Shown: positions 535 to 42,467 of the stretch, one piece after another | Numbering within the stretch: the stretch's first letter is position 1 | Layout of the letters: every line of letters starts with the position of its first letter | NCBI GenBank assembly: GCA_000310025.1 | Contig: FN649741.1 | Location: forward strand, 239,774-303,773 | Source: Ectocarpus siliculosus | Taxonomy: Eukaryota > Sar > Phaeophyceae > Ectocarpales > Ectocarpaceae | Direction: 5' to 3' | DNA length: 64,000 nt | Program-made: the position numbers and the translations under genes | The notes under the pieces: generated by a model | What the model was told of the DNA's origin: nothing | What the model saw: the letters and a program-made list of their open reading frames with translations, nothing else | Databases searched by the model: none

Positions 535-3351
535 TTAGCCGAGGATGTCGGCCGGGTTGACCAGCTCCTGCACCAACATGCCGGCGATGCCGATCATGGC
601 GAGGCGCCCGTTGTTAAGCTCCTTGGTCTGCATCTTCTCCAGGCCCGCCTGGTCCTTAGGCTTGAGGTTGAGGGGGTCGAAGCCAAGGTCTCCCGGGCTG
701 TACTCATCCCTGAGGCCACCCTCACCGGTAACGGGGCTGGGCTCAGCATATGCCTTGGTGATGGTGTTGTACTCGATGAAGGCCATGCCGAGCAGGGAGA
801 AAGCCCAGAACTGCAGTGGGGGGCGATCACGGCCGTGGGCGCGAGCGCAGGATATATAAGGGCCCGGGGGTTACATTTTTTATTGCCAAAAGACATTGGG
901 GCTTGATCGCGGCTACGCATACCCACGGATGCTCCAGAATGATGTTACGGAAAGCGCTTGATTCCTGAAACAGGAGAAGTGTGCAACACAACTAACCCAC
1001 ACAGCGTTGATGGGTGCGAATATAGTTTCCCCTTGCTCAGCAAAGCCCAGAGTCGAAAGCAGAGAAAGCAACGGGCCATTGATCATGTAGCCCGGAAGTG
1101 TGAACGTTGGGAGCATCGCGCATCACGTGGTCAACCAACTTGTTATGTTTGTCGTCGTCCAGTTTTTATTTTTTCCTCATGAAACACAACGAATTGACAA
1201 AAGACTATGATTGCGTTCATCGCTACGTAAAACCCCGAACTCTTGAACCTGTGGGTAGAGATTACTTTCTTCTAGAAACCCAAACAAGGCTTACAGAATG
1301 AACACCACACCTATCCATACTCCGCAGGTACAGCAGTATGGTGGTGTCCCACTCGGTAGGTATGGTGGGATACTGCTGCTGCCCTCTGTCCTACTCACGC
1401 TTCTCCCTTTCTCGATTATAGTGTTTGCGGCCCTCGTGCTTGCGGCAGTAACGTGTTCGATTTTAACGTACATACTTCGAGATTTTTGGAAGACATGTCC
1501 TACCTATCCGCGGTTAGAGTCCGGGGAAACTAGCAAAGTAATGTTAACGATACAACAACAATGCCCAGTTTTCGGACAAGGTCTGACGTGCAACTGGTTG
1601 GCCTGCCCTCAGTGTAGGCGTGGCAACATGCCCACGGGTTCACCACGTACGCCAATGCTTTTCATGTTTCAAGAGACCGATTTATGAGGACAAACACGGT
1701 ACCCATGTCACCGCCGACAAGGACACGCTAAATGACAATACCATCCGACGGCAAGGAAAACACTTGCACTACTGTCCAGCATCAATGGACGACGCTGCTT
1801 TCGATCTGAGAGTCAAAGCGGTTGCGCCTCAGCGCTGGAGTCGCGGCATCTCTTGTCCGTTATACTGATTACCTCGGGGAATTGCGCGCTGATCTCCTGG
1901 AAGTGGTCCACTGCAGGGCCGATGTAGTCGGGGCCCATGAAGAGAGGGTGGTATTGCTGGAGTGGGCAAGTGAGGAGGCAACGGTGGAGCAGGGAAGGGG
2001 TGAGAAGGTACGACTCCGTCGAGTTAAGCGCTGTACACATGCCCAGAATCTTTTGGCCGTCATTGAGGCGATGTAACCTCTTTTCGCCTAAAACCAGTCT
2101 TTCGTACAAAATTTTAGGTACAACTAAAAATTCTTCCAGCCGCATAGGAGCGGAGGAATACATATGCTTGGTTATTGACGCAGAGAAAAGGACATATCAT
2201 GCTTAAATGCCAGTGAGTAGGGGGCAAGATCCCGCCGTACTCTGCCGCACGAGTAGTCCCGAGTTGAACTCGCAGAGATACTGATTACTTGCTCCCTACA
2301 ACGCTACATTTGGCTCCTGCATTATGTACGAAAAAAATTCGCCGCCTCATTTTTTCGGGCCGCCTCTGTCCGCTCAAGTCGGCGGAGGTCAAGGCAGGAA
2401 TCATGTATGTACGCATCGCATGTCACTCCACAAAGATCGAACCTCCATCCCTCTGCGCTGTCCTGTTGCGCATGCATTCGGTGTACATATTGACATAGAG
2501 ATCAACGCTAATTGTCCCGCCCAACACAACACCACCTTATTCTTTCCGAAGAGGTACGCACGGCGGCAGATAGCTTGCGAGGGAGGTGCCTTTTTCTCTA
2601 CAAGAACCGCAGACAGTCGTGTGTTTGGATCATACCTCCGCCACAATGACGCCAACCGTCGCGAGCATAGCCACACGCCCGTGCTTGATTTCGGCCTCAC
2701 GCCAGAGCTTGATCTCTCCAGGTTCAGCGCCATCGGACAGCTCGAGGGGGTCGAAGATCTGGCGGGTTCAGCGATCGAAAGAACACGAGAGAGCCAGCAC
2801 GGCAGAATAGAACGGCGGGAGGATCTTGTTGGAATAAGCCACCCCGCAGCCGCCACCCCACAAGGCGGAGAGGCAAGACACTCCTGAAACAAGCTTGGCA
2901 GAGATCTACCACGCCCAAAGGAACAGTTGACTCCTACAGTTCCACGTCTGCGACAATGTACACACATATCTGTCGACGTGTCAGCGCAGTCAGCGCAAAT
3001 GGATCTGTGTGTACGTATGCGCGTGCAAGAATTCGTCTGCGCATCTACGAGCCTCTCGAAAAAATGAGCAGATATGGGTCAACCATCTGCACAGAGCACG
3101 GCAGCAGCAGAGACAACTACCATTCACGACTGACTGGCTGTGGAAAGGATCGTGCGTGTGTACGATACCTTTCCATCGCCGAAGGGAGCTCCCGGCAGGG
3201 TTGCAACGTAGTCCGATCCAGCGCTCATCTTGAGGGCCGAAGCTGAGGACGCGGGCGCCGCAGATCGCACGGCCATCGGTGCGACGAAGGCAGTCGAAGA
3301 GGCGATGAGGGTGGCGGCAGTGCCAAGGAACATGTTGGAGGAGGCAACCAT
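535..3351 (-). CDS. LHC-1: diverged chlorophyll a/c-binding antenna protein
   Basis: The exons in coding order are 3169-3351, 2636-2758, 1873-1956 and 535-810 (stop TAA). The product is 221 residues, one more than its neighbours because of an extra Ser near the N-terminus. All introns are GT-AG and phase 0, at the same positions as in the other nine genes, but they are longer (410, 679 and 1062 nt) and unrelated in sequence. By hand count it differs from LHC-2 at about 30 positions. Most lie in the presequence and in the loop after helix 2, where it reads TKAYAEPSP. The LHC helix-1 motif (EIKHGR) and helix-3 motif (ELNNGR) are intact. The start was chosen by alignment with MVAS in the other copies; an in-frame ATG upstream (3495) would add 48 residues with no presequence character. 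This is likely an older paralogue that escaped homogenisation. Confidence 0.93.
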
Positions 3352-4006
3352 TTTGTTTGGGGTTGAAAGAGTGGAAAGAGTGGAAAGAGAGAAAGTTGTG
3401 AGGGAAGGGGGGAGGGAGGCGGGTGCCGAAGCTGCGGTGATTTCGTGTGAGCAAGAACATTTGGTGACGAGAAGTTCTACGGAGAACCGCATCAACGGAA
3501 AAAATATGAACTAAAAACCGAAAACCGAAAACCTGAAACCGCGCTTCTTGCGTACGTACTTCGATACACGTCATGCCACGGCTGGCTCAGCCAATCATCT
3601 TTGAGGGTTAAAATTTGAAATAAATACCCCGAGGCGGGAACAGAGCAAATGACAAGCCCCCGGCGGCTCGTGATCTCGTGATACTTCTAGGGTGCAGGGA
3701 ATGGCCACGAGTCTCAGCCCTTATTAGCCTTATCACAGGCCCACCCCCTCTGCTGGCTGTGAATTGCCGTCTCGTGTCGTGACGTGTCTGACGGCTGTCT
3801 GACGCATAGTATGTAAAAAAAAAAAATCTAATTATGCGTACGTGCGAGAACTTTGCGCGTCACGATATGTTCTGGCTCACATCACGCACAATCTTGCCGC
3901 ATCGTCACAAACCCACGCCTCGCCACATCCTCCCACAACCGCAACACACCCTCATCCCTCCTTCCAACTGACAATCCCCCAACACACACTCCACCTACCA
4001 AGCAAG
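3352..4006. promoter_or_regulatory. Head-to-head spacer LHC-1/LHC-2
   Basis: This 655-bp divergent promoter region holds only one CCAAT-TATA module (3588-3630), and it points to LHC-2. The LHC-1 side has a leader rich in pyrimidines on the coding strand (about 3352-3410), with a repeated GTGGAAAGA seen on the plus strand, and no copy of the shared module. LHC-1 therefore appears to use a different core promoter or to share the single module. Confidence 0.55.
3588..3630 (+). promoter_or_regulatory. CCAAT-TATA module for LHC-2
   Basis: CAGCCAAT (3588-3595) is followed about 25 bp later by TTGAAATAAATACCCC (a TATA-like block). The same arrangement recurs upstream of the other plus-strand LHC genes. 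It lies about 390 bp before the ATG, so a long leader or a leader intron is implied. Confidence 0.6.
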
Positions 4007-5943
4007 ATGGTCGCCTCCCAGATGTTCATCGGCACTGCCGCCACCCTCATCGCCTCCTCGACTGCCTTCGTCGCACCGATGGCCGTGCGATCTGTTGCCA
4101 CTACTCCTTCCTCCTCGAGCCTCAAGATGAGTGCTGGATCGGACTACGTCGCGACCCTGCCCGGAGCTCCCTTCTCTGACGGAAAGGTGATGATGACGTG
4201 TGTGTGGTCGCCTTAGGAACACCCAGGGTGTGAGCTCTAGAGTATCACCCAGGGTGGTGCTTTGTACTGCTCTACATGTAGAATATCCTCAGAGTCGTTG
4301 TCTCTCAGTGCTCATGTTACCGAACACAGCAATCTTTGTTGGCGTACTGTACATGTACCGACGAGAACACGTTAGGTATAATGGCATGGACAGATGTGAC
4401 GTGAATGTTTTGGCATATTAGGTAAGCGGAGACATGCAAATGCGGATCCACACGCATGTATGTCTGCACAACATGTGGCTTGGCGCATCCAACAGCATGT
4501 ATTCATTCGTCGTCGATGCACCTCTCAAACCATCGATCTGTTGTAACGCCGCGCTGTCCAAGGTACCCTAACCACGACGCAGAGGTTGAGAGTCGACACA
4601 TTAATCACGTTGCGGTACCTGTGCACATGGAAGGATTTTCCGTGACGAAGTTGTCTCACCCGTTGCGGTCTTTGATCACTGCTGTCCCAACGCCCTCGTG
4701 CCTCAGATCTTCGACCCCCTGGGCCTATCTGACGGCGCCGCCCCCGGCGACATCAAGAAGTGGCGCGAGGCCGAGATCAAGCACGGGCGTGTGGCCATGC
4801 TTGCTTCCCTCGGTGTCATCGTCGCAGAGGTGAGGCAACCATGCGCGCGTCAATATATTTGCTGACCATAGGCATGTAGCTTCAGAAAGGGCGGCATGTG
4901 TTCTGTATTCTCCAGCGATACTACAATCCTTTTTTGCTTTGACACAGAACCCAATCGAGTCCTTCGTGTTGCTCATGATTTTCGTCAAACCGCATCGCAT
5001 GGTGTTCGCTTTCGTCTGTCGCCTCTGGATTCTTTAGCAATACCACCCGTTCTTCATGGGCCCCGACTACATTGGTCCCGCCGTGGACCACTTCCAGGAG
5101 ATCAGCGCACAATTCCCTGAGGTAAGGCTGCGTGTTCGGCGAAGCACATTTGGTTGGATACTCGCTGATGATATTTTAGACAAAGAGATACTCGGATGAA
5201 ACCAGCCGACTCTGTCTGCGACTCCGTTCAAATTACAAATCACATGTAGACCAGCGCTCGAGAAGTTACAAGCACGTGGTTCCAGCATTAAATTTCCTAT
5301 CCTCCCCCTCCAACACCGAAAACGAGTCGAAGGGTGGTATGATCCCACTCCCACCACAGCAAGGCACCATCTGCATACTTCGAAAGAAAACATGGCTGAC
5401 GTTATTCGCATTGCTGTGTCACCACCGTTCTGATATCGGTTGGTTGACCAGCCTGTTGTACGAAGTCCTCGGCAGATTGACCCACTCATCAAGTGCCCTT
5501 TTGCGCAGTACCTACTCGAGTGTTGTTCCTCCCGGCACAAGGATACGGTACTGTCAACGATGCCACCCTTCCCTCGACACCATGTGGTCGACTAGTGCTG
5601 TTTGTTCACACAACCATCCCCTCTCTGTGTCTCTCTGCCTGTCATTCCCGTGTCTCCAAAACCTCAGTTCTGGGCGTTCTCCCTCCTGGGCATGGCCTTC
5701 ATCGAGTACAACACCATCATGACCGCCTTCGACACCCCCAGCGCTGTCACCGGCGAGGGCGGCCTGAAGGAGGACTACATCCCGGGAGACCTCGGCTTCG
5801 ACCCCCTCAACCTCAAGCCCGACGACGAGGCGGCTCTGGACGTGATGAAGACCAAGGAGCTCAACAACGGCCGTTTGGCCATGATTGGCATCGCCGGCAT
5901 GTTGGCGCAGGAGCTGGTGAACCCGGCCGACATCCTCGGCTAG
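4007..5943 (+). CDS. LHC-2: chlorophyll a/c-binding antenna protein (reference copy)
   Basis: The exons are 4007-4186, 4707-4829, 5038-5121 and 5668-5943 (stop TAG), giving 220 residues; all introns are GT-AG and phase 0. Exon 1 encodes the presequence: a hydrophobic signal (about residues 5-19) and the plastid motif with likely cleavage before Phe21 (STA/FVAP), then a Ser/Thr-rich stretch and the stromal N-terminus of the mature protein. Exon 2 encodes helix 1 with the chlorophyll-ligand and salt-bridge motif E83-x2-H86-x-R88. Exon 3 encodes the lumenal loop ([11 protein letters not shown]). Exon 4 encodes helix 2 ([11 protein letters not shown], from residue 130) and helix 3 with E193-x2-N196-x-R198. 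This is the three-helix chlorophyll a/b-binding family (Pfam PF00504). Family knowledge says the protein sits in the thylakoid membrane and feeds excitation to the photosystems. The Lhcf, Lhcr or Lhcx subclass was not decided. Confidence 0.96.
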
Positions 5944-8900
5944 ATTGTTTTACTTTGTCGGTTGGGATTATCTGGGTGTACGAATCAAGTGTGTTCGTGT
6001 TATTTTGTCAAATGTTTTATGCATCCTTCGATCCGAGAGCATGGAAGGTAGTTAGGAGGTGCTACCGTGTTGTTACGGCTTTGTCTCGCGATCGTAGATG
6101 CTGATGTGATACGAAAGTTCCTTGATGCTTACTTTTTCGGCTGTAATTTGCCTTTGTACCGAAGGATTGCTGAGTGTCGACGATTCGATTGGCCTTCCAT
6201 TATTTTGGTTCTTCCATGCATACCACCGATGGTGATGTCGGTGGAGGGAAGAATCTTTGTCGCACTTGTCATTATGGTGAGAAAGTTTGCTTGTTGTTTA
6301 GCCGACGCTATTCCCGCTCAGGCTCACGAACAATTTTGTCTTGTGTTTTTCCTTTAGACAAGCTTCGCCATTTGGCTGTTTCCGTTGAGATATGTCTTCA
6401 CGATTCTGGTGTTGTCTAAACTCGAAAGGTCGAGCTGGTGGCGATAGAAGAGCAACATAGAGTGTTGCGCGCCGGAATGTCGTGTTTGCTAGTCTGACGT
6501 GTGTGGTGAAAAGAGAGTGTAGCACTTTCCATTTGTGTGTGTAGCCAATGCTCTCGTACAGGCTTGCCTCCTCGCGGTGTGATCGTTGGTTAATTGCACC
6601 TCACACGGATGCTTCACCTTGTAGCTTGCGTGCAGTGGCGTCCAAGGTGTGCCTCGTCGAGTTGTTGTGCGACGCGTGCGCCCTTGGTTAAATTTTGTTG
6701 TGTGTATTAGTATCATCAGAGGGATGTTCAATCCAAGTGATGACTCTCTATTGATTTCCCTAGTTGATGTCGTGCTGTCAATCGAAAAATGAACGAAAAC
6801 ATCCCCGTCCTAGGTGACACCTGCTGGTGACAGCAGTACTTGCGTGCTTGATGTCGGAGGGCAGCATTCTGCCCCCCACGGGCAACTACAACAGCCCTTG
6901 ACACTGTGATGGTCTAGCGTACGCACTCGTTCAACGATGCACGCATGGTGATGTTCTACGGACTCGTAAAACGATGCAAACATGCATCTGCCCTCACTGA
7001 CGCCATCTAACCCGTATTACCACGGCCCATGTGGTTCGGAGAACACCGGCATCGCGCACCGGCAACATACCCGACACCCAGAAACAAGTTCATTATAACT
7101 TGCGCTTACGTGAACCCACAACTAACACGGAAGTACGATTCCCGGGCGCGTGGCCATCTTCCCATTCACGCATGGAGGAAGCCGCACCTCTCATCATGAT
7201 GAAGTGCGGAAAGAGGGCGCAGAGTTCGGCGAAGGATTCAAGGTTGGTATATATTCAGACGGCCAAGGAAGTGTGTGAAGTATTGCCATCCTCTCATCGA
7301 CAACGACTACATGCACTGTCGCCTGGCCTAATGTAGTGCAGGCAAAAAGCGCCAGCCAGTCTTTCTTCCAGTACAGTACGTTGTGCAACCGGAAACTCAA
7401 ATAATTGGGTTCGACATGGATGGATGCTCATGGAAGTGCGTTGACGACCCAATGTTTGCACGTACTACGAAAACGAGCCAAAGGACATGTTTCGGGTGGT
7501 GCGGAATATATCCAATCTCCGTTTTCATCCTTTTTGACCCGGGATCGATCGTCTGTATCCCGGTAATTTTTCTTTTTCGTTTGGGGAAAAAAAATCACGC
7601 CCTGGAAGACCTTTTTGGCCTCGATTTTCATTTATATTATTTCTAGAAAGGTGGACCCCCTTTTAGGGTTTTAGGGTGGGACCAGTATTACGGACATTAG
7701 AAAAGGTACAGAGCGGAGTACACCGGAACGGTTTTGTATAGCGAAGAATACAACAACAACAACAACCGTACCGTTCTCCTCATATATTATGTACCACCAC
7801 ACACACCCGAAGAGATGCTGAGCACAAGTAGCTAATGTTCAATGTGAGGATGAGGGAAGGGAGGCCGGAAGGTGAGCGCGGTGGGTTGACTCATCAACGA
7901 CAAGTTTTACGCCACGGTGATCGACGCGATGCTTGGGACGTAGAGCTTCTCGTCATGGTTGGTTCTTGTTCGCTCGAATCATCCCAGCTGCCACACCTTC
8001 CAACCTCCCTCCACCCATCCCTCACAAGCTCCCATCTACAGAAGTAGTAGTAGTATTATCCGCAATGCCTGCTCGGAGTCTCTTCGGGTATGGTGGCAGC
8101 TATCTATCTATGCGTAGGGGTATGCTATGAAAAATATGAACGAACGCTCTATTTTGATCGCTCCCGAACCATGTACGACAGCACAGCAAAAACATCAAAG
8201 GCTGAACGACGAGAGGTGGTGAGATCTTGAGACAGGAGTCGTCTGTAAGTGTACGAGAAAGGTAGGGTGTGCTGGCGCTTCCGATCGATGCCGTACGTTG
8301 CCGACGACGACTTTGTTGCGGCCGATTTGTTGGCATGCTCCATCTAGAAATTTTCAGCTGGCTGGCCGTGTAGGATAGATCTCTGGAGTGGATATTTGAC
8401 CGACGGGCGAGGGATAACCCTATTTCATTGTCCATCTATTGAAGACATATTCTCCACAACGAAGCCCCTAAAACCCAGCACTTCCAATAAACACATGGTC
8501 GAACATTCGGGCATCGGAATAAGCACAAGACCTTTCCCTACTCGTCCGTGGAGGTCCAAAATCGACGATAGGCTCAGTACAGTGGCTGGCCTGGTTCCAG
8601 CATTGATGCATTGATGTGCCGAAGCCGATCTTCCGGTCGGTCGGGTAGAAACACTTGTCGTCTGCTCTAGGCCAGACACAACAGCCACGAAGGTAAATGG
8701 GATAATGACTATTCTCAGTTCTTGTTGGGGCCGTAAATACGTCAACCTTGATGCCTTCGCCGAATGCCGTGAGCGTCTTTCCGTACATACTTGTTTAGGG
8801 GTTTGCCCACCACCGACTAGCGAAAGAAAAACCACATTCATTCGCCATCATGGCACGTTTACACGATTGCGCATGATGAAAAGACAGTAGAATGGCCATC

Positions 8901-10106
8901 ACAGCAGTTCCTGCTTGTGGGTTACGAAGTGAAGACGCAGCTTCATTCGTATGCCGGTATGGCATGCCGATATCCTCACACGCTAGTCGGTGGGGACATC
9001 ACGGTCACAAATGGCGGCCGGTGAGGGCAGATGCATGCCATGCATGATGCATACTCCATGCGTTGTTTCACGCACTGCCGCCAGCAGGTGTCAAGGGCTG
9101 ATTCGCGTAGGGCAGGTATCTCGCCCCTCAACCATTAACCACGACGGTACTGTCGCCAGAAGGTGTCACGTGAGACATGGACGTTTTCGTCAAGTTTGTA
9201 TTCGATTGTTCGATTCATAAAAACACTACATACCCTCAACGCCATTCACGCTGCACGGCAAAGTCGAGACGTTGTCAAGGACATTCAAACAAACAACAAA
9301 TGAACTTCAAGAAGCAGGGCGTAGCACACCATCTCGATGCGACACACCTCGGACACCACTGCACGCAAGCTGCAAAGTGGGACATCGGTGCCAGGTGCGA
9401 CAAAAAATAACACTACCCCACTTCCCACCAATCGTCTACAACAAATACCTTCACGAGTCCCTATACAACATACAAACCACGAGGGGGCGAGCATGCACGA
9501 AAAAGTTGACTACATACATTACCGTGCTGCCATTCTCTTGTTACCACACACGTCAGACTCGCAAACGCGATATTCGGGGAGTCTCGAATACGGCACAACG
9601 CATCGAATCGTTCATCACTTCTCATGCTCGACCTTCACAATCTCGACAAGAGAGCTGTCGTGGGTGTAGGTAGCAGTCTGTCTCGGACACTAGGATCGAT
9701 TAGAGATTGAAAACCACGAACAGCCAATTCGCAAAGCTCGTCCAAAGAAAAAACAGCTGGAACAACATCGAGCAGAACCTGTCGCCACCAAATGTGGCAA
9801 GAGCGATACAGATTTCTCCGTACGCCGACATTCCTAGCGGTGGTGTGAAAGAAACCGTTAGAGTCGAGAAGTCCAACTGTCGACCTTCAAAACTAAACCG
9901 GTACAGAAGTAACTTGAAGCCGAAAACGTAAGCATCAAGGAACGCCAACCACACCAGCATCTACCATCGCGAGACAAAGCCGTACAGTAAGTGCCATGTA
10001 CCTTCCCCATGCTCTCGGATCGAAGGATGCATAAAACACTGACAAAAGCACACGAACACACTTGATTCGTACACCCAGGTAATCCCAACCGACAAAGTAA
10101 AACAAT
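5944..10106. other. Tail-to-tail spacer LHC-2/LHC-3
   Basis: This is 4.2 kb with no supported gene. It is two inverted 3' flanks meeting near 7.6-8.1 kb. The left flank changes type near 6.05 kb: the first about 100 bp match the flank of LHC-3 and LHC-6, and the rest matches LHC-5, LHC-7 and LHC-8. A hairpin-forming palindrome sits at 6859-6874. A CAA-rich run lies near 7750-7770. The middle (about 7000-8900) is an inverted copy of about 24.8-26.7 kb. All open frames here are short and shift between copies, so I read the region as non-coding. Confidence 0.75.
6859..6874. repeat. Palindrome in LHC-2 3' flank
   Basis: GGGCAGCATTCTGCCC has 6-bp perfect arms around a 4-base centre. It is the counterpart of the palindromes at 17916, 26863 and 33724 and lies about 0.9 kb past the stop codon. 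Confidence 0.65.
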
Positions 10107-11987
10107 CTAGCCGAGGATGTCGGCCGGGTTCACCAGCTCCTGCGCCAACATGCCGGCGATGCCAATCATGGCCAAACGGCCATTGTTGAGCTCCTTGGTC
10201 TTCATCACGTCCAGAGCCGCCTCGTCGTCGGGCTTGAGGTTGAGGGGGTCGAAGCCGAGGTCTCCCGGGATGTAGTCCTCCTTCAGGCCGCCCTCGCCGG
10301 TGACAGCGCTGGGGGTGTCGAAGGCGGTCATGATGGTGTTGTACTCGATGAAGGCCATGCCCAGGAGGGAGAACGCCCAGAACTGAGGTTTTGGAGGCAC
10401 GGGAATGACGGGCAGAGAGACACAGAGAGGGAATGGTTGTGTGAACAAACAGCACTCGTCGACCACATGGTGTCGAGGGAAGGGTGGCATCGTTGACAGT
10501 ACCGTATCCACGTTGTGTCCCCAATAAATCGAGTAGATACTGCGGAAGAAGAGCATTTGTTAAGTGGGTCAACCTACCGAGGCCTTAGCGCAGCGTACAA
10601 CTGGCTGGTCAACCAACTTACGTCAGCACTGCGGGAGAAACGCAATGGGAATTAAGTTTTTTTCATCAAAGTGTGCAAATGGTGCCTTACTCTGTGGTGG
10701 GAGTGGATTGTAACACCCTTCGACTCGTTTTCGGTGTGGGGAACGGGGGGACAGGAAATTCGTTGCTGGAATCACTTGTGTACCTTCTCGAGCAGTGGTC
10801 GGTCTACAAGTGAATTGCGTGTTTTATCCGAGTCGCACAAAGCACAACTTGTCAAATCCGACTTTTCAATGGCCTCACACATCAAATTTGTGTCCCTCGA
10901 ACACCCAGCCTCACCTCAGGAAACTGCGCGCTGATCTCCTGGAAGTGGTCCACGGCGGGGCCAATGTAGTCGGGTCCCATGAAGAAAGGGTGGTATTGCT
11001 GGAGTGGGCAACGACGACAGGGACGAAAGCGAACACCATGCAATGAAGGCGGGACATAAATCATGAGCAACAAGAAGGATTCGATCACAACAGGTGTTGT
11101 GTCAACGGTAGGATTCAAGTATCGCGGGAGAATACAAAACAACATGCCACCCTCTCTGAATCTACTGTGTGTGTCAATCGTATTCCAACACATTCACGCG
11201 TGCATGGTTTTCCTCACCTCTGCGACAATGACACCGAGGGAAGCCAGCATGGCCACACGCCCGTGCTTGATCTCGGCCTCGCGCCACTTCTTGATGTCCC
11301 CGGGGGCAGCGCCGTCGGATAGGCCCAAGGGGTCGAAGACCTGAGGCACGAGGGCGTTGGACAGCAGTGTGATCAAAGACCGCAACGGGTGAGACAATCT
11401 GACCCAGAGGGCATAATCTCACACGGACACGGCACGGTGATGGATATACTCATCTGTTGAACTCCCAATCTTTTCTTCGTCGTGGATAGTATACTTTGGA
11501 TAGCGGCATGGCAAAGTTGAGTGTGTGTGTGCGGCCAGGATGCTGTACATATCTACATGACTGCTATACCACACAAAAGATTACCTTGAAGCGATGCAAG
11601 CGTTATTTGTCTGTGTGACTGATCTAACCAGACCGTGTACGTCCACAAGATACTGCTAGTCGGTGTTCTAGCGAGCGAGCCTTCGGACACGGATACACGT
11701 TGCTCGAGAGCGGCGGTCCCAAGGGTGTTGTAGCCTACAGACCTACATGCATAGGGACAAAGAACCACCTCGAGTGTTGGCTCACGTCATCACGCACGCT
11801 TCCTCACCTTTCCGTCAGAGAAGGGAGCTCCGGGCAAAGTTGCGACGTAGTCCGAACCGGCGCTCATCTTGAGGCTCGAGGAGGAAGTAGTAGTGGCAAC
11901 AGATCGCACAGCCATCGGTGCCACGAAGGCAGTCGAGGAGGCGATGAGGGTGGCGGCAGTGCCGATGAACATCTGGGAGGCGACCAT
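10107..11987 (-). CDS. LHC-3: chlorophyll a/c-binding antenna protein
   Basis: The exons in coding order are 11808-11987, 11218-11340, 10915-10998 and 10107-10382 (stop TAG), giving 220 residues. The mature region equals LHC-2 except that exon 2 opens with Val instead of Ile (VFDPLG), a change shared only with LHC-9. The presequence has [10 protein letters not shown]. Introns are 467, 219 and 532 nt. Introns 1 and 2 resemble those of LHC-6, which is the inverted counterpart of this gene. The 5' partner is LHC-4, 1055 bp away. The ATG at 11987 is fixed by the conserved MVASQMF; only a C/A-rich leader lies upstream. Confidence 0.95.
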
Positions 11988-12382
11988 CTTTGCTTAGTGG
12001 GTGGAGTGTGTGTTGAGAGATTGGTTGATGAAGGTGGGATGAGGGTTTGTTGCGGTTGTGGGAGGATGGGGGCGAGGCGTGGGGGTGGGTAACGATGCGG
12101 CGAGATTGTGGTGTGATGAGCAAGAAGGGACTTGTGACGCGCCTCGAAGCACGTATACGTCCATCCACATCATGTGTCGACCACGTCAGTCACTCAAACG
12201 CGATGGCAACTCAACTCACAGTCAGCAGGGCGGGTGAGTGTGTGCTTGAGCTACTGCTGTAACTAAAGCTGAGTCTCCTCGTCGTTACCCACCTGCCTGT
12301 CACATCGTACATTCATCGGCTCGCCTACCACGGTACGTTTCAGCAGCGCGGTCCCATTTGGGGCGGGGCGGTTTGCCTCTGC

Positions 12383-12425
12383 GGGGTATATATTTCAAAT
12401 TTGAACCCTCGAAGATGATTGGCTG
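12383..12425 (-). promoter_or_regulatory. CCAAT-TATA module for LHC-3
   Basis: On the minus strand CAGCCAAT (12425-12418) precedes AAATATATACCCCGC by about 25 bp. The module is nearly identical to the LHC-6 module on the plus strand at 21263-21306. Confidence 0.65.
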
Positions 12426-12531
12426 AGTACGCGGCGGAACCACAACACCATGACGTGTTTTCAAAGTACGTCACGAATTCTCTGTTCGGTAGTCGTGCGT
12501 GTTGCAGTTCGCAGTTTGGCCACGACAAGCC

Positions 12532-12558
12532 TGCAAACACTGCAAACACTGCAAACAC
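12532..12558. repeat. Three tandem copies of TGCAAACAC
   Basis: Three exact 9-bp repeats stand in the centre between the two divergent promoter modules. The reverse complement occurs as two copies at 21121-21138 (LHC-5/6) and as two full copies plus one shortened at 30244-30269 (LHC-7/8). It may be a protein-binding site or simple slippage. Confidence 0.6.
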
Positions 12559-12579
12559 GTCATAATGCCGCCGCGTGCT

Positions 12580-12614
12580 CAGCCAATCGTCAAGAATTGA
12601 AGTAAATACCCCGC
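12580..12614 (+). promoter_or_regulatory. CCAAT-TATA module for LHC-4
   Basis: AGCCAAT (12581-12587) is followed by AGTAAATACCCCGC (12601-12614). This is the TAAATA variant, shared with the minus-strand LHC-5 module at 21066-21099. It lies about 430 bp before the ATG. Confidence 0.6.
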
Positions 12615-30222: not shown

Positions 30223-30415
30223 AGCACGCGGTGGCATCATGACGTGTTTGCGTGTTTGCAGTGTTTGCAGTCTTTCTGTGTGTTTTTTTATTATTCCTTA
30301 AGTCTTGTCGTGGCCAAACTGCCAACTGCAACACGCACGACGCACGACGAACGAACAGAGAGTTCGTGACGTTGTTGTTGTGCGTGACGTACTTGACAAA
30401 ACAAAAAGAACTACT

Positions 30416-30456
30416 CAGCCAATCATCTTCGAGGGTTCAAATTTGAAATATATACC
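30416..30456 (+). promoter_or_regulatory. CCAAT-TATA module for LHC-8
   Basis: CAGCCAAT (30416-30423) precedes AAATATATACC. The CCCGC tail seen at the other copies is replaced by AGAGG here. Confidence 0.62.
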
Positions 30457-30857
30457 AGAGGAAAACAGCCCGCCCCAAACGGGACCGCGCTGCTGAAACG
30501 TACCGCTGTAGGCTAGCCGACCAATATACGATGTGACAGGCAGGTGGGTAGTGACGAGGAGACTCAGCTTTACTTTCTGTAGCTCAAGCACACACTCAAC
30601 CGCTCTGCTGGCTGTAAGTTGAGTTGTCATCATCGCGTTTGAGTGACTGACGTGGTTGACACATGACGATGTGTGGATGGACACATACGTGCTTGGAGGC
30701 GCGTCACAAGTCTCTTCTTGCTCATCACTCATCACACCACAATCTCGCCGCATCGTTGCCCCCCCACTTCTCTCCCCCATCCGCCCACAACCCACTACAC
30801 ACCCTCATCCCACCTTCATCAACCAATCTCCAGCACACACCCCATTTACTAAGCAAG

Positions 30858-32844: not shown

Positions 32845-33723
32845 ATTGTTTTACTTTGTCGGTTGGGGAATATTTTGGGATACACGTTTATATATTTTTC
32901 GTTAATGTATTGGTGTGAATGGACCACGTGTGGTCGTGCGCTTCTGTCCGTGTTTTATGCTTGCGGTCTGAGAGGATGAATTGTAGTTGGGAGATGCTAC
33001 CTACCGTATTGTTACGGCTTTGTCTCGCGATCGTAGATGCTGATGTGATACGGAAGTTCCTTGATGCTTACGTTTTCAACTGTAATTTGCTTTTGTCCGG
33101 AAGGATTGGTGAGTGTCGGCGGAGGGAAGAATCTGTGTCGCTCTTGCCATGATGGTGAGAAAGATTTTTTGATGTTGTTCAGCCGAGGCTATTGCCGCTC
33201 AGGCTCACGAACAATTTTGTCTCTGTTTTTCCTTTAGGTGATGTTCGCCATTGTGCTGTTTCCGTTGTTATATGTCTTCACTGTCCTGGTGTTGTCTAAA
33301 CTTGAACGGTCAAACTTGAAAGCAATAAATGAGTAGTTTTAGCATGGAGTGATACGCCCCGGAATGATGTGTTTGCGAGTCTGACGTGTGTGGTGAAAAG
33401 AGTGTGTACAAGTACGTTCATGTGTGTAGCCAAAGCTTTCGTACAGGCTTCCCTTCTCGCGGTGGGATCCTTGGTTTGTTGCACTTGACACGGATGCGTC
33501 ACCTTGAAGCTTGCGTGCAGTGGCGTCCAAGGTGTGCCTCGTCGAGTTGTTGTGCGACGCGTGCGCCCTTGGTTAAATTTTGTTGTGTGTTTGAGTATCA
33601 TCAGAGGGATGTTCCATCCAGGTGATGACCTCGACAATTGTTCCGTCGTTGATGTCTTGTTGTTTATCAATCAAAAATGTGACACCTGCTGGTGACAACA
33701 GTACTTGCGTACTTGATGGCGGA

Positions 33724-33739
33724 GGGCAATATACTGCCC
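33724..33739. repeat. Near-palindrome in LHC-8 3' flank
   Basis: GGGCAATATACTGCCC is the fourth copy of the dyad, with one mismatched pair. It lies 880 bp past the LHC-8 stop. Confidence 0.6.
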
Positions 33740-35731
33740 CCCACTGGCAACTACAACAGCCCTTGACACTGTGATGGTCGAACGTACGCACTCGTTCAAC
33801 GATGCACGCATGGTGATGGTCTACGGACTCGTAAAACGATTCACGCATGCATCTGCCTTCACCGACCGCCATCTGACCCGTAATACCACGGCCCACGTGG
33901 TTCGGAGGACACCGGCATCGCGTACCCGCAACATACCTGACACTCAGAAACAAGGTTCATACATATGTGGCACACTCGTGTATATGTGAACCCACAACCA
34001 ACAACGTGGAGTAGAATTCCAGCATGTGATGGCAATCTTCTTATTCACGTATGGAGGAAGGCTCATCTCTCATCATGATGAAGTGCGGAAAGTGGGCACA
34101 GAGTTCGGCGAAGGCTTGAAAGTTGATATCTAGACGGTCGAGATATTGTGTGAAGTATAGCTATCCTCCCATCGACAACCACTGTCTGTCGCCTGGCCGA
34201 TGTAGTGCAGGCAAAAGACGCCAGCCTTCTACAGCACGTTGCCTAACCGAAAATCTGTTTGGGTTCGACATCGATGGTGATGGGATCGTTGACGACGCTA
34301 TTTTTGGACGTAGTAAGAAACCGAGCCAAAACGCGTGTTGGCTTGTTTTCTCATTGCAGACATTTTCAATCAGCGTACGTACATAGTATTCAATCATCGA
34401 TGAGAGTACAGGATTCGGTTAGCGGCCTCGATTCGCAATATTCAATTGAGGTAAATACGGGATTTGATGAGATGAAGAACGCGCCAGCGTAAAACAGTGC
34501 TCACGTGTTCGTACCCTCGAGTGGATGCCACCACACACCCCCGAGGAGATGCTGAGCAGTCATTTGCAGCAACGTTTCAACCAATCAATGTGATTTTATG
34601 AGGGATAAGGGAAGGGAGGCCAGAAGGTAAGCATAGACTGGCCGATTCATTCACGACAAGTTTTACGCCACGGCGATCGACGCGATGCGTCTGACGTAGA
34701 ATTTCTCGTCACGGTTGGTTCTTGTTGGCTGGAATCATCCCAGCTGCCACACCTTCCAACCTCCCTCCCCCCATCCCTCACAAGCTCCCATCTACAATAA
34801 TACAGTAGAAAAAACCGTGTACCGCACATACCGTGTACCGCACATACATACCCACAAACCACCAACAACGCTCGCTCGTTGATGGGCACCGCCTCCAGAA
34901 TAGGATACCGGCCCCTTTCGACAGAGGGTCGGATTCGCTTGACGCGCGAGTTCGTTCGGTGTGGTGCTGATTAGTAAAAAAAGCACACACAGAGAGAGAG
35001 ACACACAGCGAGAGAGGCACAGAGAGAGAGAAAAACGGGCACGACCTGCCTCGTGCACCATGCTTCCGAGGCACAGGACACAGACAGCGGTTTATTGGTT
35101 TCGCCGCGATCTACGGCGGATGCTGTCGGAGATTGGTGTCGTGTTGATTTCCAAGTGTACACTGAAATGGTCATAATCCACCCAGGTACCCGTTTCTGGT
35201 TACTTCTCTGCAAACAAGGGGGAACGATGAGAGGTGGTGAGATCTTGAGACAGAGAGGTATGTATCGTCTGTAAGTGTACGAGCAAGGTAGGGTGTGCTG
35301 GCGCTTCCGATCGATGCCGTTCGTTGCCGACTACTCTTCTTGCTGCCGATTTGCTGGCATGCGCTCGAAGTTTTCAGATCTCTGGAATGGAGTGGACAAC
35401 TGGCCAGTGGGGGAAAGCCTATTATATTACAATGTATCCAATGAATACTCTACGACGAGGCTCCCCACCAAATCCAACACTTTCGTGCAACACGTCATTT
35501 AACATTCGCACCAAGGAAAAGAGGAACACATGATTTTTCTCGTTCGTCATGGTCCAAAACCCAAAACTAGTGTCTCCACTCACTGTGGTTGTAGCGTTGG
35601 TGCCGAATCCGAGCTTCCGGTCGGTCGGGTAGTAACAACAACGCGTTGTGAGTCTGGCGCTTTTTGTTTGCACTAGGCCAAACACAACAGCCACCTGCGT
35701 GGATGAGATGATGATGTGGCTATGCTCAGTA

Positions 35732-36705
35732 TACCGAACAGTCGGAGAGTTGGCACCGGTCGGAGAGACGGCGGGGTGCGATACAAAACCCGAGAAAACA
35801 ACATTTAATTCGATTTACGCACCGGGGTCGGTGATATCACACCGGGTGCGATCTCTCCGACCCCCAAATCCAAGATTGAGCTCCTTTTCAGCTGCCGGAG
35901 TGAGGTATATGTGCGTACCTTTTACCCGTGGGGACGGTGTCAGCGGACCGCCACTCCTTTGCGTACGATTGGATGGTCGCGGTTCACGCGGGATGCCAGT
36001 TGTAGATTTTTTAATTGGTATGGAAGTTGCCAACCGTACATCAACCAAACACACGACGTACAAGCCGCACCCTACCCCACCTTACACACCCGAAACTAAA
36101 ACTAATGTACTGCTGCGTACGTACTGGTATCCGTAGAAGAAGACCGAAACGAAAGCGGGAAACAATTGATACCGTGTGTACTGGCACCACCTCAGATGGA
36201 AACGACATTTATTTTTTGTTGTCACGCCATAGCCACACTCGCATCAAACACAAGACCACTCGCTGCATGGAAAGCTGTTACGTACCAGCCTACGTTGCCG
36301 TTACCGGTGTGCTCCAACCACCAACAACGGCACCTACACGTACGTGTGGTTCTATATTGTACTGATCAATAGCCAGCATGATCAACTATTGTAATAGCGT
36401 GTGAAGAAGACCGTGTGTGTGGGTGCCTACACTGGTATCAATACTATCGTACCGGTCGGGGAAATGGCACCGGGGTGCGTGGGTGCATACAAGACCTGTG
36501 TGTATTTCATCGGGGATGGCACCGGTCGGAGATATCGCACCGGGGTGCCTTGGAAAAATTAAAAGAAACGATTTAATTGCATTTATTTCCGCACGGGGGT
36601 CGGAGAGATGGAACCGGTGGGAGACATGGCATGCGCGATAAAAAACCCGAGGAAAAACCATTTAAAAAAACGATCGCACCCGGTACCGACTCTCCGACTA
36701 CGGTA
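35732..36705. mobile_element. Non-autonomous DNA transposon with TIRs and TA target duplication
   Basis: The element body is 35734-36703 (970 bp), flanked by TA on both sides. The left end is CCGAACAGTCGGAGAGTTGG and the right end, reversed, is CCGTAGTCGGAGAGTCGG, so the termini are imperfect inverted repeats of about 25 bp. Subterminal and internal copies of GGTCGGAGAGAT or its reverse occur near 35757, 35849, 36452, 36519, 36598 and 36688. The related spacer at 8.6-8.8 kb reads straight through this point, showing an unfilled site. No transposase frame is present. A TA duplication is typical of Tc1/mariner-like families, but the assignment is inference. Confidence 0.72.
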
Positions 36706-38088
36706 TGTCGTGGCCGTATTCAAACAGCTTTGAGCCTTTCGCCGAAGACTGTGGGTACCCGTACTTTACCATTAGAGGTATGTCCACCACCGACAAAAGA
36801 AAGAAGTACCACACTTACTTCTCGCTGCTGGTGTGCATGTTCTGTGCGTCTACTGCGCATAGGTATAGAATGACCATCACTGCTATTAATTCCTGTTTGT
36901 GTGGGCTACGTAGAAGAAAGAGACGCGGTTTCTTTTGTGTATGCCGGCATGGCATGCCGGTATCCTCACACTGTAGTTGGTAGTCAGTGGGGACGTCACG
37001 GTCACAGATGGCGGTCGGTGAGGGCAGATGTATGCATACATGCCCCATTCTCCGGACTGTCGCCAGCTGGTGTCAAGGGCTGGTTGCCCGTAGGGGAGGG
37101 TATCGTCCCCCAACCATCAAGCACGCAAGTACTGTCGCCAGTAGGTGTTACGTGAGATACAGACGTGCTCGTTATGTTTGTATTCAGTTCACAACAACAC
37201 TCACTACCCTCGACGAGGGCAACACACAGAGAGAGGTCATCATCTGGACGGAACAACTCCCAAACAACGTGATTCACGGTGCATGACAAGGTCGAGACGT
37301 TGGCTCTGATATTCAAACAAAAAACACACGTTAACGACGGCCAAGAGCGTCGAATAACAAAACGACCTGACACACCCTTAACGCCTCTGCACGTAACCTA
37401 CGAAGTTTGGCATCAGTGTCAGGTGCGACAAACCAGTGACATCGGCCCCACTTGCTACAAATCATGCACGACAAACACTTCACGAGCCCCATATACCAAA
37501 GATCAAACAACGAGGGGGCACACCTGTACCGAAGCATTGCTACATACATGGACTTGCAAGATCAGTCGACTTGCGGAAGCTGTCGTCATTGAAGCAGTCC
37601 GTTTCCCACACTAGGATCGTGAAGACATATTACAATACAAACATCCAACTCGCGAAGATAGCCTTCCGTAAAATGACAGTCAAAATTGTGAGTGAGCCTG
37701 AGAGGAACTGGCCCCGGCTAAACAACGTCAAGCAAAAATTTTCGCTCCTACATACCCATGCCAAGAGCGACACAGATTCCTCTGTATACGCCGACATCAC
37801 CGTCGGTGGTAAAAGGAAAAGCCGAAAGATTAAAACACAAGTCGAATTGTCGGCACTCAGCACAACTACTACGGTGCAGAAGTAAGTTACAGCCGGAACC
37901 TCAAGCATTAACGAAACGCGCTTCACACCAGCATCTACCATCGCGGGACAAGACCGTACGATGCGGTGTGCACCTCCCAACTACCTTCCATGCTCTCGGA
38001 CCAGACCGATGCATAAACACTTGACAAAAGAACAAGAACACACTTGATTCATACACGCAGATAATCCCAACCGACAAAGTAAAACAAT

Positions 38089-39903
38089 CTAGCCGAGGAT
38101 GTCGGCCGGGTTCACCAGCTCCTGTGCCAACATGCCGGCGATGCCGATCATGGCCAAACGGCCGTTGTTGAGCTCCTTGGTCTTCATCGCGTCCAGAGCC
38201 GCCTCGTCGTCGGGCTTGAGGTTGAGGGGGTCGAAGCCGAGGTCTCCCGGGATGTAGTCCTCCTTCAGGCCGCCCTCGCCGGTGACAGCGCTGGGGGTGT
38301 CGAAGGCGGTCATGATGGTGTTGTACTCGATGAAGGCCATGCCCAGGAGGGAGAACGCCCAGAACTGAGGTTTTGGAGGCACGGGAATGACGGGCAGAGA
38401 AACACAGAGAGGGAATGGTTGTGTGAACAAACAGCACTCGTCGACCACATGGTGTCGAGGGAACGGTGGCATCGTTGACAGCACAGCATCCACGTGTGTC
38501 ACGAGGAGCAACACTCGAGTACGTGCACGGGAGTACTCTTGTGCTACTTTGGACAAGCTGCAGAGGCCTTGGCGGTAATGTACAACTGGCTGGTCAACCA
38601 ACGTACATCAGCACGGCGACACCACACTACTGGGAACATGTCCATAGACTATATATAGCCTATTGTTTCAAGTGTGCAGATGGTGTCTTGATCTGGTGAG
38701 GTCATGCCGCCCCGAAATTTAGGACTCGGGTTCGGTGGAGGGAGGGACAGGAAATTCGTTGCTGGAATCATGTGTGTACAACTTCTCCAGCAATGGTCGG
38801 TCTACAAAAGATTGCGTCTTTTACCCGAGTCGCCGTATATGATCAAACCGGACTTTTCATTTGCCTCACACATCATGTATGCAACGAAATGCGCCAGTCT
38901 CACCTCAGGGAATTGCGCGCTGATCTCCTGGAAGTGGTCCACGGCGGGGCCAATGTAGTCGGGGCCCATGAAGAACGGGTGGTATTGCTGGAGTGGGCAG
39001 AGACGATAGGGACGAGAGTGCGCACAACGCGATACGGCGGGACAAAAATAATCAGCAACGCGGAAGACTTGATTGTGGTCTTGTGTCTACAGCAGGGTAG
39101 TAGTATCGCTGAGAAAACAAAACAACGTGCCACCCTTTCCGAAGACATGTGTCCATCGTGTGCCATCATGCATGGTTTGCCTCACCTCTGCGACGATGAC
39201 ACCAAGGGACGCAAGCATGGCCACACGCCCGTGCTTGATCTCGGCCTCGCGCCACTTCTTGATGTCCCCGGGGGCAGCGCCGTCGGATAGGCCCAGGGGG
39301 TCGAAGACCTGAGGCACGAGAGCGTTGGGACAGCAGTGGTGATCAAAGCCCGCAACAGGTGAGCCAATTTGGCCCAGAAGGTAAGACCTCAAACATAAAG
39401 ATACAGCAGTAACGGCATCGCGATCGAATTGATCTGTCTATTCATGTCATCATGCAGTCTATAATACCAGCGTGTCCATGTTGGTTCTTGTATAGTCTAC
39501 ACAGATACGTCCACAAAATAGTCTATTGCTATGCATATTCGGTATTCGGTATTCTACAATAGAACGAGCGAGCCTTCGGATACGGCAGTACTCTGTATAT
39601 GGATACACGTTGCGGAGAGACGGGTGGTCCCGAGGGTACTGCTGTGGTAGCCTAGACTGTGTACTTATGCATACAAAGCACAACCTTGGGTGTTGGCTCA
39701 CGCCACCACACACACCTCCTCACCTTTCCGTCAGAGAAGGGAGCTCCGGGCAGGGTCGCGACGTAGTCCGAACCAGCGCTCATCTTGAGGCTCGAGGAAG
39801 AAGGAGTAGTGGCAACAGATCGCGCAGCCATGGGTGCGACGAAGGCAGTCGAGGAGGCGATGAGGGTGGCAGCAGTGCCGATGAACATCTGGGAGGCGAC
39901 CAT
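38089..39903 (-). CDS. LHC-9: chlorophyll a/c-binding antenna protein
   Basis: The exons in coding order are 39724-39903, 39186-39308, 38904-38987 and 38089-38364 (stop TAG), giving 220 residues. It carries MAARS in the presequence, Val at the first residue of exon 2 (as in LHC-3) and Ala188 instead of Val188 in the loop before helix 3 (LDAMKTKE), shared only with LHC-10. Introns are 415, 198 and 539 nt. Intron 1 is a variant of the LHC-3 type. The leader (39904-40020) is shorter than in LHC-3 to LHC-8, and no CCAAT-TATA module faces this gene. Confidence 0.95.
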
Positions 39904-40548
39904 CTTGCTTGGTAGGTGGAGTGCGTGTTGGAGATTGGGTGTTGGAAGTTGGGATGAGGCTGTGTTGTGGGTTGTGGGGGATGGGGGGAGAGGCGTGGGG
40001 TGGCGATGATGCGCGATGATGATGCGGCGAGATTAAGTAGCTGCGAACTGCGAACTGCGACACAGCACGACGAACGAACATGACGCACTTTGAAAACACG
40101 TCATGATGCTACCGCTTGCTCAGCCAATCATCTTCGCGGGTTCAAATTTGAAATAAATAACCCGCAGAGACAACAAGCCCGTCCCTTGGCCCAAAAGAGA
40201 TCGTGTTGCTGAAAAGCACCCTGCAGGCGAGCCAACTAAAGCACCATGCGATAGACAGGGTAGGGAATGACGAGGAGACTCAGCCCTAACTACTGTAACT
40301 CTCATACTCACCCGGTCTGCTGGCTGTGAATTGCCGCCCTCGTTTCAGCTACTGACGTGGTCGACACATGACCGGTTGGACACATATGCACGTCACAATT
40401 CCCTTCTGGCTCATCACGCACATCTCGCCACATCGTCCCACCCCCACGGCCTCTCCCCATCCTCCCACAATCCACTTCACACCCTCATCCCCATCCCAAC
40501 TTCCAACAACAACCAATCTCTCAACACACATTCCACCTACCAAGCAAG
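39904..40548. promoter_or_regulatory. Head-to-head spacer LHC-9/LHC-10
   Basis: This 645-bp spacer carries one CCAAT-TATA module (40121-40165) that faces LHC-10. As in the LHC-1/2 spacer, the inverted second module is missing. A tandem TGCGAACTGCGAACTGCGAC run (about 40,041-40,060) lies on the LHC-9 side. LHC-9 is either driven from the shared module in reverse or from an unrecognised promoter. Confidence 0.6.
40121..40165 (+). promoter_or_regulatory. CCAAT-TATA module for LHC-10
   Basis: CAGCCAAT (40121-40128) is followed by AAATAAATAACCCGC, close to the LHC-2 module. It lies about 390 bp before the ATG. Confidence 0.6.
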
Positions 40549-42467
40549 ATGGTCGCCTCCCAGATGTTCCTCGGCACTGCCGCCACCCTCATCGCCTCCT
40601 CGACTGCCTTCGTCGCACCCATGGCTGTGCGATCTGCTGCCACTACTCCTTCGTCCTCGAGCCTCAAGATGAGTGCTGGATCGGACTACGTCGCCACCCT
40701 GCCCGGAGCTCCCTTCTCTGACGGAAAGGTGAGGAGGTGTTTGTGGTGGCGTGAGCCAACACGCACACCCGCGGTGGAGTGCTACGTTGTACAGCAGTAC
40801 CCGCAGGACGCTGTCTCTTGTATCCGTGTTTTGAAGGATCGCTCGATCTGTCGCAATAACACACAAGTATTAGTATTTCGTGGACGTGCACGTACCAAAT
40901 GAACATGTAAATTGTGTTGTATGATGAACAACCAATGACATCGACAAAGAAGGCGCGTATCACGTCAAGGATGTTGTCGTGTGTTGTCTTCATGTGGAAC
41001 AACACCTGGGCGACACTCAATTAGTTGGCATTCCCCTATCCAAGGTATCACACTACACAAGGTATATCATCTCCACATAAATGGAGAGACTGTGCATCGA
41101 CAAATCAATCGTTCGCGGTGCTGTATCTATACATGTGTGAGGTCTTACCTTCTGGGCCAAATTGGCTCACCTGTTGCGGGCTTTGATCACCACTGTCCCA
41201 ACGCTCTCGTGCCTCAGATCTTCGACCCCCTGGGCCTATCCGACGGCGCTGCCCCCGGCGACATCAAGAAGTGGCGCGAGGCCGAGATCAAGCACGGGCG
41301 TGTGGCCATGCTTGCGTCCCTTGGTGTCATCGTCGCAGAGGTGAGGCAAAGCATACATGACGGCACACGATGGACACATGCCTTCGGAAAGGGTGGCGTG
41401 TTGTTGTAATGTTTTCCAAGGATACAAAAAAAACTGTTGTAGACAGAGATAGTCTAGTTTGGGGCGTTGCTCATGTTTTTCGTCCCGCCGCATCCCGTTG
41501 TGCTCGCTCTCGTCCTGTTGTCGTTGCCCACTCCAGCAATACCACCCGTTCTTCATGGGCCCCGACTACATTGGCCCCGCCGTGGACCACTTCCAGGAGA
41601 TCAGCGCGCAGTTCCCTGAGGTGAGAACTGGGTGTTCGGGAAAACACTGTTGCTATGTAGACTACATGACGTGTGAGGCAATCGAAAAGTCCGATATATG
41701 CATATCAAGTGGTGTTGTTTCTGCGACTCGGGTTAAACACGCAATTCACTTGTAGACCAACCATTGCTGGAGAAGCTATACACACAGAGTACGTGATTCC
41801 AGCAACGAATTCCTTCCCTCCCCTTCCAACACCGAACCCGAGTCGTACATTTCGGAGCGGCAGGACCTCACCAGAGTAAGACACCACTGCACACTTTGAA
41901 ATAAGATTTATGGAGTTGTTCCTAGTTTCTAGTGATGTGGTGCCGCCGTGCTGGTATCAGTTGGTTGACCAGCCTGTTGTACGAAGTCCTCGGCAGGTTG
42001 TCCGACTCATCAAGTACCTTCTTCCGCAGTATCTACTCGAGTGTTGTTCCTCGTGGCACAAGAAGTATGCTGTACTGTCAACGATGCCACCGTTCCCTCG
42101 GCACCATGTGGTCGACGAGTGCTGTTTGGTCACGAAAGAACTCCATCTCTGTGTCTCTCTGCCCGTCATTCCCGTGCCTCCAAAACCTCAGTTCTGGGCG
42201 TTCTCCCTCCTGGGCATGGCCTTCATCGAGTACAACACCATCATGACCGCCTTCGACACCCCCAGCGCTGTCACCGGCGAGGGCGGCCTGAAGGAGGATT
42301 ACATCCCGGGAGACCTCGGCTTCGACCCCCTCAACCTCAAGCCCGACGACGAGGCGGCTCTGGACGCGATGAAGACCAAGGAGCTCAACAACGGCCGTTT
42401 GGCCATGATCGGCATCGCCGGCATGTTGGCGCAGGAGCTGGTGAACCCGGCCGACATCCTCGGCTAA
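40549..42467 (+). CDS. LHC-10: chlorophyll a/c-binding antenna protein
   Basis: The exons are 40549-40728, 41218-41340, 41537-41620 and 42192-42467 (stop TAA), giving 220 residues. It has Leu8 for Ile (MFLG, as in LHC-1), RSAATTP in the linker, and Ala188. Introns are 489, 196 and 571 nt. This is the right end of the array. Downstream similarity to the shared 3' flank continues to at least 43.5 kb but is weaker than among internal copies, and the stop is followed at once by different sequence (ATTTGTTTGCTTTTCTAG). Confidence 0.95.

Follow-up and report, generated by a model that had tools for sequence, protein, structure and literature searches.

The 64,000-nucleotide window analysed here (contig FN649741.1, positions 239,774 to 303,773 of the forward strand) contains an array of ten genes for proteins of the light-harvesting complex (LHC) type, which alternate in strand without exception (− + − + − + − + − +) from position 535 to position 42467. 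We label the genes g1–g10, the divergent intergenic regions between head-to-head partners P1–P5, and the tail-to-tail spacers S1–S4, with a partial S5. Perfect alternation of ten independent strands would arise by chance with a probability of 2/2^10 = 0.002. All 40 exons (four in each of the ten genes) were located by tblastn; each gene splices into an intact open frame through three GT-AG introns, all of phase 0; the exons measure 180, 123, 84 and 273 nt (183 nt for exon 1 of g1); and the products are 220 aa long in g2–g10 and 221 aa long in g1. These gene models confirm the ten genes, the strict alternation and both ends of the array as given in an initial annotation of this DNA, but extend its estimate of 38 kb for the whole array to about 42 kb.

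The protein of g2, the one copy scanned against Pfam, matches PF00504 (Chloroa_b-bind) over residues 51–212 with 134.1 bits against a cut-off of 22.3 (E 8.5e-39), which places it in the LHC (chlorophyll a/b-c binding) superfamily. In the PDB, g10 has XLH12 (9m4f chain t; E 8.6e-39; query residues 12–217 aligned) as its best full-length relative with a single domain, although the sequence of XLH12 is clearly divergent; XLH is a name for xanthophyte antenna proteins. A multi-domain protein, 9vfj chain 11, reaches a summed score above that of XLH12 with the same query, and the PDB matches are spread over several red-lineage groups. From these matches we infer a red-lineage host and from the introns a nuclear location: the array is probably a nuclear multigene set that encodes a single antenna protein in an alga of the red lineage (probably with chlorophyll a/c), and its role is likely gene dosage for an abundant antenna protein.

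The initial annotation had described nine copies coding for almost one protein, and this is correct for g2–g10: their products are 96.4–99.5% identical and vary at 15 of 221 alignment columns, 12 of which lie among the first 38 residues (the presumed targeting peptide) and three in the remainder. Their introns are nonetheless 5–44% apart in pairwise comparisons. The protein of g1 is 81–84% identical to the others.

The 534 bases to the left of g1 match none of the spacers at E 1e-5, and the left end of the array may lie beyond the start of the window. No LHC pseudogenes were seen in the spacers by a low-stringency tblastn search covering g1 to part of g4 (best spacer match, E 0.93); one weak tblastn match to LHC lies at 17585-17484 (E 0.30). 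A scan for RNA families gave no match at the gathering score. A scan against IMG/VR returned a single locus (L001) with 17 matched residues, which we judged to be a chance match (480 of 10051 bases viewed).

Inverted spacers and palindromic intergenic regions

The spacers S1–S4 are homologous in all six pairs, as the initial annotation had proposed in calling them duplicated, but they lie in two orientations: S1+, S2−, S3− and S4+. All six comparisons agree on this assignment, the winning strand exceeding the other 2.9–8.5-fold in summed bits: the pairs S1/S3 (4864 vs. 572), S1/S2 (2000 vs. 450), S2/S4 (2006 vs. 490) and S3/S4 (1989 vs. 497) are inverted, and the pairs S1/S4 (2359 vs. 802) and S2/S3 (1970 vs. 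416) are direct. Each spacer also matches its own reverse complement (over 55, 63, 43 and 35% of the length of S1, S2, S3 and S4, respectively), a match seen in none of three mononucleotide shuffles of each.

The divergent intergenic regions P2, P3 and P4 align end to end with their own reverse complements (74, 73 and 71%, respectively); P1 and P5 do so over only 27 and 38% of their length. Some inverted self-similarity is thus present at all nine junctions, end to end at three of them, as expected from an ancestral inverted duplication of a gene together with its flanks.

All five regions share a module of about 45–55 bp, in which CCAAT is followed by a 12-bp palindrome, TTCAAATTTGAA (at most one mismatch), that begins 17 bases after the start of CCAAT, and then by an ATA-rich stretch. 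The module occurs at six sites in the 64 kb, all within P1–P5, and at none in ten mononucleotide shuffles. Both mirror copies are found in P4, one good and one decayed copy in each of P2 and P3, and one copy in each of P1 and P5; therefore, each gene pair retains at least one. The conservation of this module suggests that it has a role at the promoters. Bidirectional promoter pairs are characterized by a short head-to-head distance of about 1 kb or less; the distances in the array, measured from ATG to ATG and not from transcript starts, are 655, 1055, 1055, 1119 and 645 bp, and each pair may use its region as a bidirectional promoter.

Several smaller likenesses were observed in these regions. 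A stretch of P1 located 45–142 bp upstream of the start codon of g1 (3396-3493) resembles stretches of about 90–100 bp at or towards the middle of S1 (7939-8027), S2 (17026-17118) and S4 (34684-34783), at 68–73% identity, as if a relic promoter lay inside the spacer; S3 has no match to it at E 1e-3. In S4, about 1 kb (35741-36725) has no match in the other spacers and contains direct repeats (35741-35808 and 36599-36665, 81%); it is perhaps a small mobile element. A 33-bp stretch of P4 (30269-30301) recurs far outside the array (56013-55981) with 94% identity.

Exchange between copies and divergence of the array

The flanks of the genes fall into two sets of classes that are mutually incompatible. 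The 3′-flank tree of g2–g10 (g1 was left out of this tree and of the recombination tests) separates {g2, g5, g7, g8} from {g3, g4, g6, g9, g10} with a support of 100, the two groups being genes beside opposite sides of the spacer; the tree of the 527-bp 5′ flanks of g3–g8 separates {g4, g5, g7} from {g3, g6, g8}, again with a support of 100. Therefore, all four combinations of 5′ and 3′ class are present in g3–g8 (g3/g6; g4; g5/g7; g8). Copying a pair in simple tandem fashion cannot give rise to these, but exchange between the flanks, i.e. within gene bodies, could produce them; and the four combinations, taken with the spacer orientations, argue for exchange between copies on opposite strands.

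The arms of a large inverted block about S2 (6.8–14.1 kb vs. 26.9–19.6 kb, reversed) are 86–97% identical per 300-column block; around these arms, the identity is 77% in the spacer beside g2/g7, 92–95% in exon 4 there, 67–76% in several blocks of the g2/g7 bodies and 78% in intron 3 of g4/g5. All inverted arms compared about S2 range from 67 to 98%. On a smaller scale, g8 differs from g9 by 5–8% in introns 2 and 3 but by 39% in intron 1, which in turn is only 11–12% from that of g4/g5/g7. Between the last part of intron 1 and a point within intron 3, g8 and g9 are 91–99% identical; their identity is 86% in the block where intron 3 meets exon 4 and 99% in the remainder of exon 4, compared with 84% and 47% in the two exon 1/intron 1 blocks; a concordant run like that of g8–g9 was reached in none of 500 permutations. 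The inverted block about S2 and the g8/g9 tract are younger than the array as a whole.

A long-run permutation test gave a global P < 0.05 for four of 36 pairs in the gene body (g8–g9, g7–g8, g2–g10 and g5–g6) and for 12 of 36 with flanks included, and in a PHI-like test 0 of 300 permutations were as low as observed, both for the gene-body set and for the set with flanks. Patchy exchange between copies, as in concerted evolution, is therefore detectable; homogenised non-coding parts are not, the mean p-distance among g2–g10 being 0.32, 0.24 and 0.22 for introns 1, 2 and 3, respectively (0.05–0.44 for single pairs). Near-identical palindromes with arm-to-arm conversion have arms that are nearly identical along their length; here, the best arms reach 86–97% per block, and P2–P4 match themselves in inverted orientation at 71–74%.

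Among g2–g10, dN is 0.002–0.016, dS is 0.059–0.163 and GC3 is 0.83–0.87; between g1 and the others, dS is 0.52–0.61 and the introns scarcely align (mean p 0.52–0.57). Given these distances, the array is neither new nor homogenised as DNA. Divergence dips at the exons and climbs again beyond their borders. The least variable exon is exon 4 (mean dS 0.047 vs. 0.15–0.29 in exons 1–3; 0.46 against g1), and its similarity extends about 100–200 alignment columns into intron 3 and not at all beyond the stop codon. We had considered exon 4 as proof of homogenisation, but this rise of divergence on both sides weakens it, and the exon-centred pattern is mainly a sign of selection, to which local conversion may have added. 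The suggestion in the initial annotation that the array is kept homogeneous by conversion is only partly right: recombination tracts can indeed be detected, but the introns and spacers have not been homogenised, and purifying selection therefore does most of the work. Across the copies, only the exons stay alike.

Positions of the features and neighbouring sequence

Coordinates of the genes, intergenic regions, spacers and inverted block (positions in the 64,000-nucleotide window)
Feature	Position	Strand	Remarks
g1, LHC	535..3351	−	exons 3169-3351, 2636-2758, 1873-1956, 538-810; stop 535-537; divergent copy
P1, g1/g2 divergent intergenic	3352..4006		655 bp; module ~3586-3641, palindrome 3608-3619 with one mismatch
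g2, LHC	4007..5943	+	exons 4007-4186, 4707-4829, 5038-5121, 5668-5940
S1	5944..10106	+	tail-to-tail spacer, 4163 bp
g3, LHC	10107..11987	−	exons 11808-11987, 11218-11340, 10915-10998, 10110-10382
P2, g3/g4 divergent intergenic	11988..13042		1055 bp; decayed palindrome throughout; module 12427-12373 (towards g3) and its decayed mirror copy 12568-12613
g4, LHC	13043..15060	+	exons 13043-13222, 13827-13949, 14153-14236, 14785-15057
S2	15061..18913	− relative to S1	tail-to-tail spacer, 3853 bp; centre of larger inverted block
g5, LHC	18914..20656	−	exons 20477-20656, 19764-19886, 19485-19568, 18917-19189
P3, g5/g6 divergent intergenic	20657..21711		1055 bp; decayed palindrome throughout; module 21261-21315 (towards g6) and its decayed mirror copy 21090-21057
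g6, LHC	21712..23584	+	exons 21712-21891, 22375-22497, 22718-22801, 23309-23581
S3	23585..27851	−	tail-to-tail spacer, 4267 bp; 86% identical to reverse complement of S1 over nearly whole length
g7, LHC	27852..29738	−	exons 29559-29738, 28900-29022, 28596-28679, 27855-28127
P4, g7/g8 divergent intergenic	29739..30857		1119 bp; decayed palindrome throughout; modules 30234-30170 (towards g7; one mismatch in its palindrome) and 30414-30456 (towards g8)
g8, LHC, mosaic	30858..32844	+	exons 30858-31037, 31594-31716, 31921-32004, 32569-32841
S4	32845..38088	+	tail-to-tail spacer, 5244 bp; extra block ~35741-36725 with internal repeats
g9, LHC	38089..39903	−	exons 39724-39903, 39186-39308, 38904-38987, 38092-38364
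P5, g9/g10 divergent intergenic	39904..40548		645 bp; module 40111-40164 facing g10
g10, LHC	40549..42467	+	exons 40549-40728, 41218-41340, 41537-41620, 42192-42464; stop 42465-42467
S5	42468..43815	−	partial spacer past g10, right array edge (approximate)
Inverted block about S2, left arm	6810..14095	+	S1-g3-P2-5′ part of g4; compared with reverse complement of 19626-26924
Inverted block about S2, right arm	19626..26924	−	5′ part of g5-P3-g6-S3; block comparison with 6810-14095

To the right of the array, a long open frame on the minus strand (45062-46765) encodes an FMO-like flavin monooxygenase (PF00743, E 6.3e-37). Further on, also on the minus strand, parts of a GFO/IDH/MocA-type oxidoreductase lie at 52929-54845 (PF01408, E 1.1e-15; the second part scores below the cut-off), and an intron apparently separates them. 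On the plus strand (59381-64000), two long open frames of 653 and 886 aa follow one after the other, the second running off the window; neither has a Pfam match at E 0.001, and they look retroelement-like by eye only. Tandem repeats of 75 bp lie at 61055-61312.

Origin and persistence of strand alternation

The explanation that best accounts for the array as a whole, and that we consider probable, combines inverted duplication, amplification of a pair, reshuffling by recombination, purifying selection and gene dosage. The architecture, the palindromy, the spacer orientations, the mosaicism and the shared module are direct observations, from which we propose the following order of events: at an early stage, a gene and its flanks would have been duplicated in inverted orientation, giving two head-to-head genes whose divergent promoter was a palindrome; this pair would have been amplified, and its copies then reshuffled by recombination; exchange between opposite strands would have turned spacers and promoters around and either copied or inverted the block of about 7 kb; gene conversion would have moved shorter tracts, such as that of g8/g9; and purifying selection, with local help from conversion, would have kept the protein constant. 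The outcome would be dosage of an abundant antenna protein, each pair having a common divergent promoter with its CCAAT-palindrome-ATA module. We argue that alternation survives because an exchange between opposite strands inverts an even number of genes and an exchange on the same strand adds or removes an even number; both types preserve alternation, and no special selection is therefore required. The description of the locus as a chain of inverted repeats in the initial annotation fits this evidence, as would the gene-dosage role that it proposed, and the instability expected of such repeats becomes a smaller puzzle: the arms are 67–98% identical per block, the longest exact repeat is 245 bp, and the spacer flips indicate that rearrangement did occur.

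Several results weigh against this reconstruction. Promoter orientation by summed bits is weak (1.4–2.4-fold: P2/P3, 1354 vs. 574; P2/P4, 1052 vs. 683; P3/P4, 953 vs. 664), so that the argument from four combinations rests on the g3–g8 trees; of the four comparisons made for P1, that with P4 disagrees with the other three, and P1 and P5 were left out of the key orientation argument because their orientation is not firmly decided. In the 5′-flank tree, g8 is set apart from {g3, g6} with a support of 99, as a distant member of that side, and resolution is poor in a tree of the 320-bp 5′ flanks of the full set of ten genes (most supports <60). Flank conversion might mimic a class swap, although it would less easily reverse a whole 4-kb spacer. 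The recombination tests were run with our own versions of GENECONV and PHI; the pairs that they identify show a weak bias towards adjacent genes (3 of 4, P 0.028; 5 of 12, P 0.062) and no clear bias towards opposite strands (3 of 4, P 0.39; 9 of 12, P 0.095). Similarity hugs the exon borders, and selection on coding sequence and codon use can explain this with little conversion. Finally, the data would look alike whether a duplication was inverted from the outset or was direct and then flipped.

Other explanations of the array were considered. If a head-to-head pair had simply been amplified in tandem without any inversion, alternation would be automatic and the homology of pairs, promoters and spacers would be accounted for; however, this model predicts a single orientation and two gene classes, whereas the spacers lie in both orientations in six of six comparisons and g3–g8 show four flank combinations. 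We therefore rejected it as very unlikely, unless the spacer orientations are assembly errors. A further alternative is that a smaller or differently ordered locus was misjoined, inverted repeats being hard to assemble; yet the copies differ by 5–44% in their introns and also in intron lengths, the sequence contains no N's, and the longest exact repeat in 1–44 kb is 245 bp (none of 250 bp), so that longer reads should fix the order, and we regard an artefact as highly improbable. A very recent burst of copies, the other origin raised by the initial annotation, would explain the near-identical proteins and the parts of the inverted arms that are 95–99% identical, but is contradicted by the dS of 0.06–0.16 and mean intron divergence of 22–32% among g2–g10, by the dS of 0.52–0.61 for g1, and by the main aligned spacer pieces, which are 71–81% identical (S1/S3, at 86%, being the exception); for the array as a whole, a burst was therefore rejected as extremely unlikely.

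Alternation might instead be selected, for example through the shared regulatory module or the avoidance of read-through. In all five pairs, at least one module has kept its palindrome intact or with a single mismatch, P1 and P5 having a single module and P2 and P3 one module plus a decayed mirror copy, as such selection would lead one to expect; homologous exchange, however, would by the above argument maintain alternation unaided. We consider selection for alternation unlikely, and it may coexist with the duplication and exchange history proposed here. A bolder form of that history is a standing inversion system, in which recombination between opposite-strand LHC genes keeps flipping promoters and spacers while alternation and protein stay fixed; this is possible but doubtful. 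If true, strains or individuals would differ in which 5′ regulatory half is paired with which gene body and 3′ end, copy number would shift by twos, and regulatory halves would be continually re-dealt.

The alpha- and beta-tubulin genes of trypanosomatid arrays alternate with each other, whereas in the present array one gene alternates in strand. In both cases, the regular arrangement is itself the feature (PMC1621084). The LHC proteins Esi_12–Esi_22 of Ectocarpus siliculosus (supercontig 0085) are likewise highly similar and encoded by genes close together, and concerted evolution and/or recent duplications were proposed for them (PMC3008699). That account, as far as it was available to us, is given without strand alternation, palindromic spacers or flips, and the words "cluster", "tandem", "orientation" and "head" do not occur in its main text. 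In Symbiodinium minutum, LHC units have also multiplied, within and between loci and with shuffling of units, but largely inside polyprotein genes rather than as ten separate genes on alternating strands (PMC4351107). Strand alternation is not described in the available portions of these two LHC papers; four others (PMC5643376, PMC12716418, PMC13219633 and PMC3096602) served for background and naming only. No alternating LHC array is named among the literature matches listed, whose coverage likely misses older work on such clusters. The new point of the present array is structural: palindromic promoters, spacers in two orientations, and four flank combinations.

Long inverted arrays are usually deemed short-lived; here, mean intron divergence lies between a fifth and a third, the alternation is still perfect, and the spacers preserve a record of earlier flips. 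If our argument holds, a general rule follows that can be checked in any genome: once an array alternates, homologous recombination alone can maintain the alternation. The array also offers a natural test of the shares that selection and conversion have in the uniformity of an abundant photosynthetic protein.

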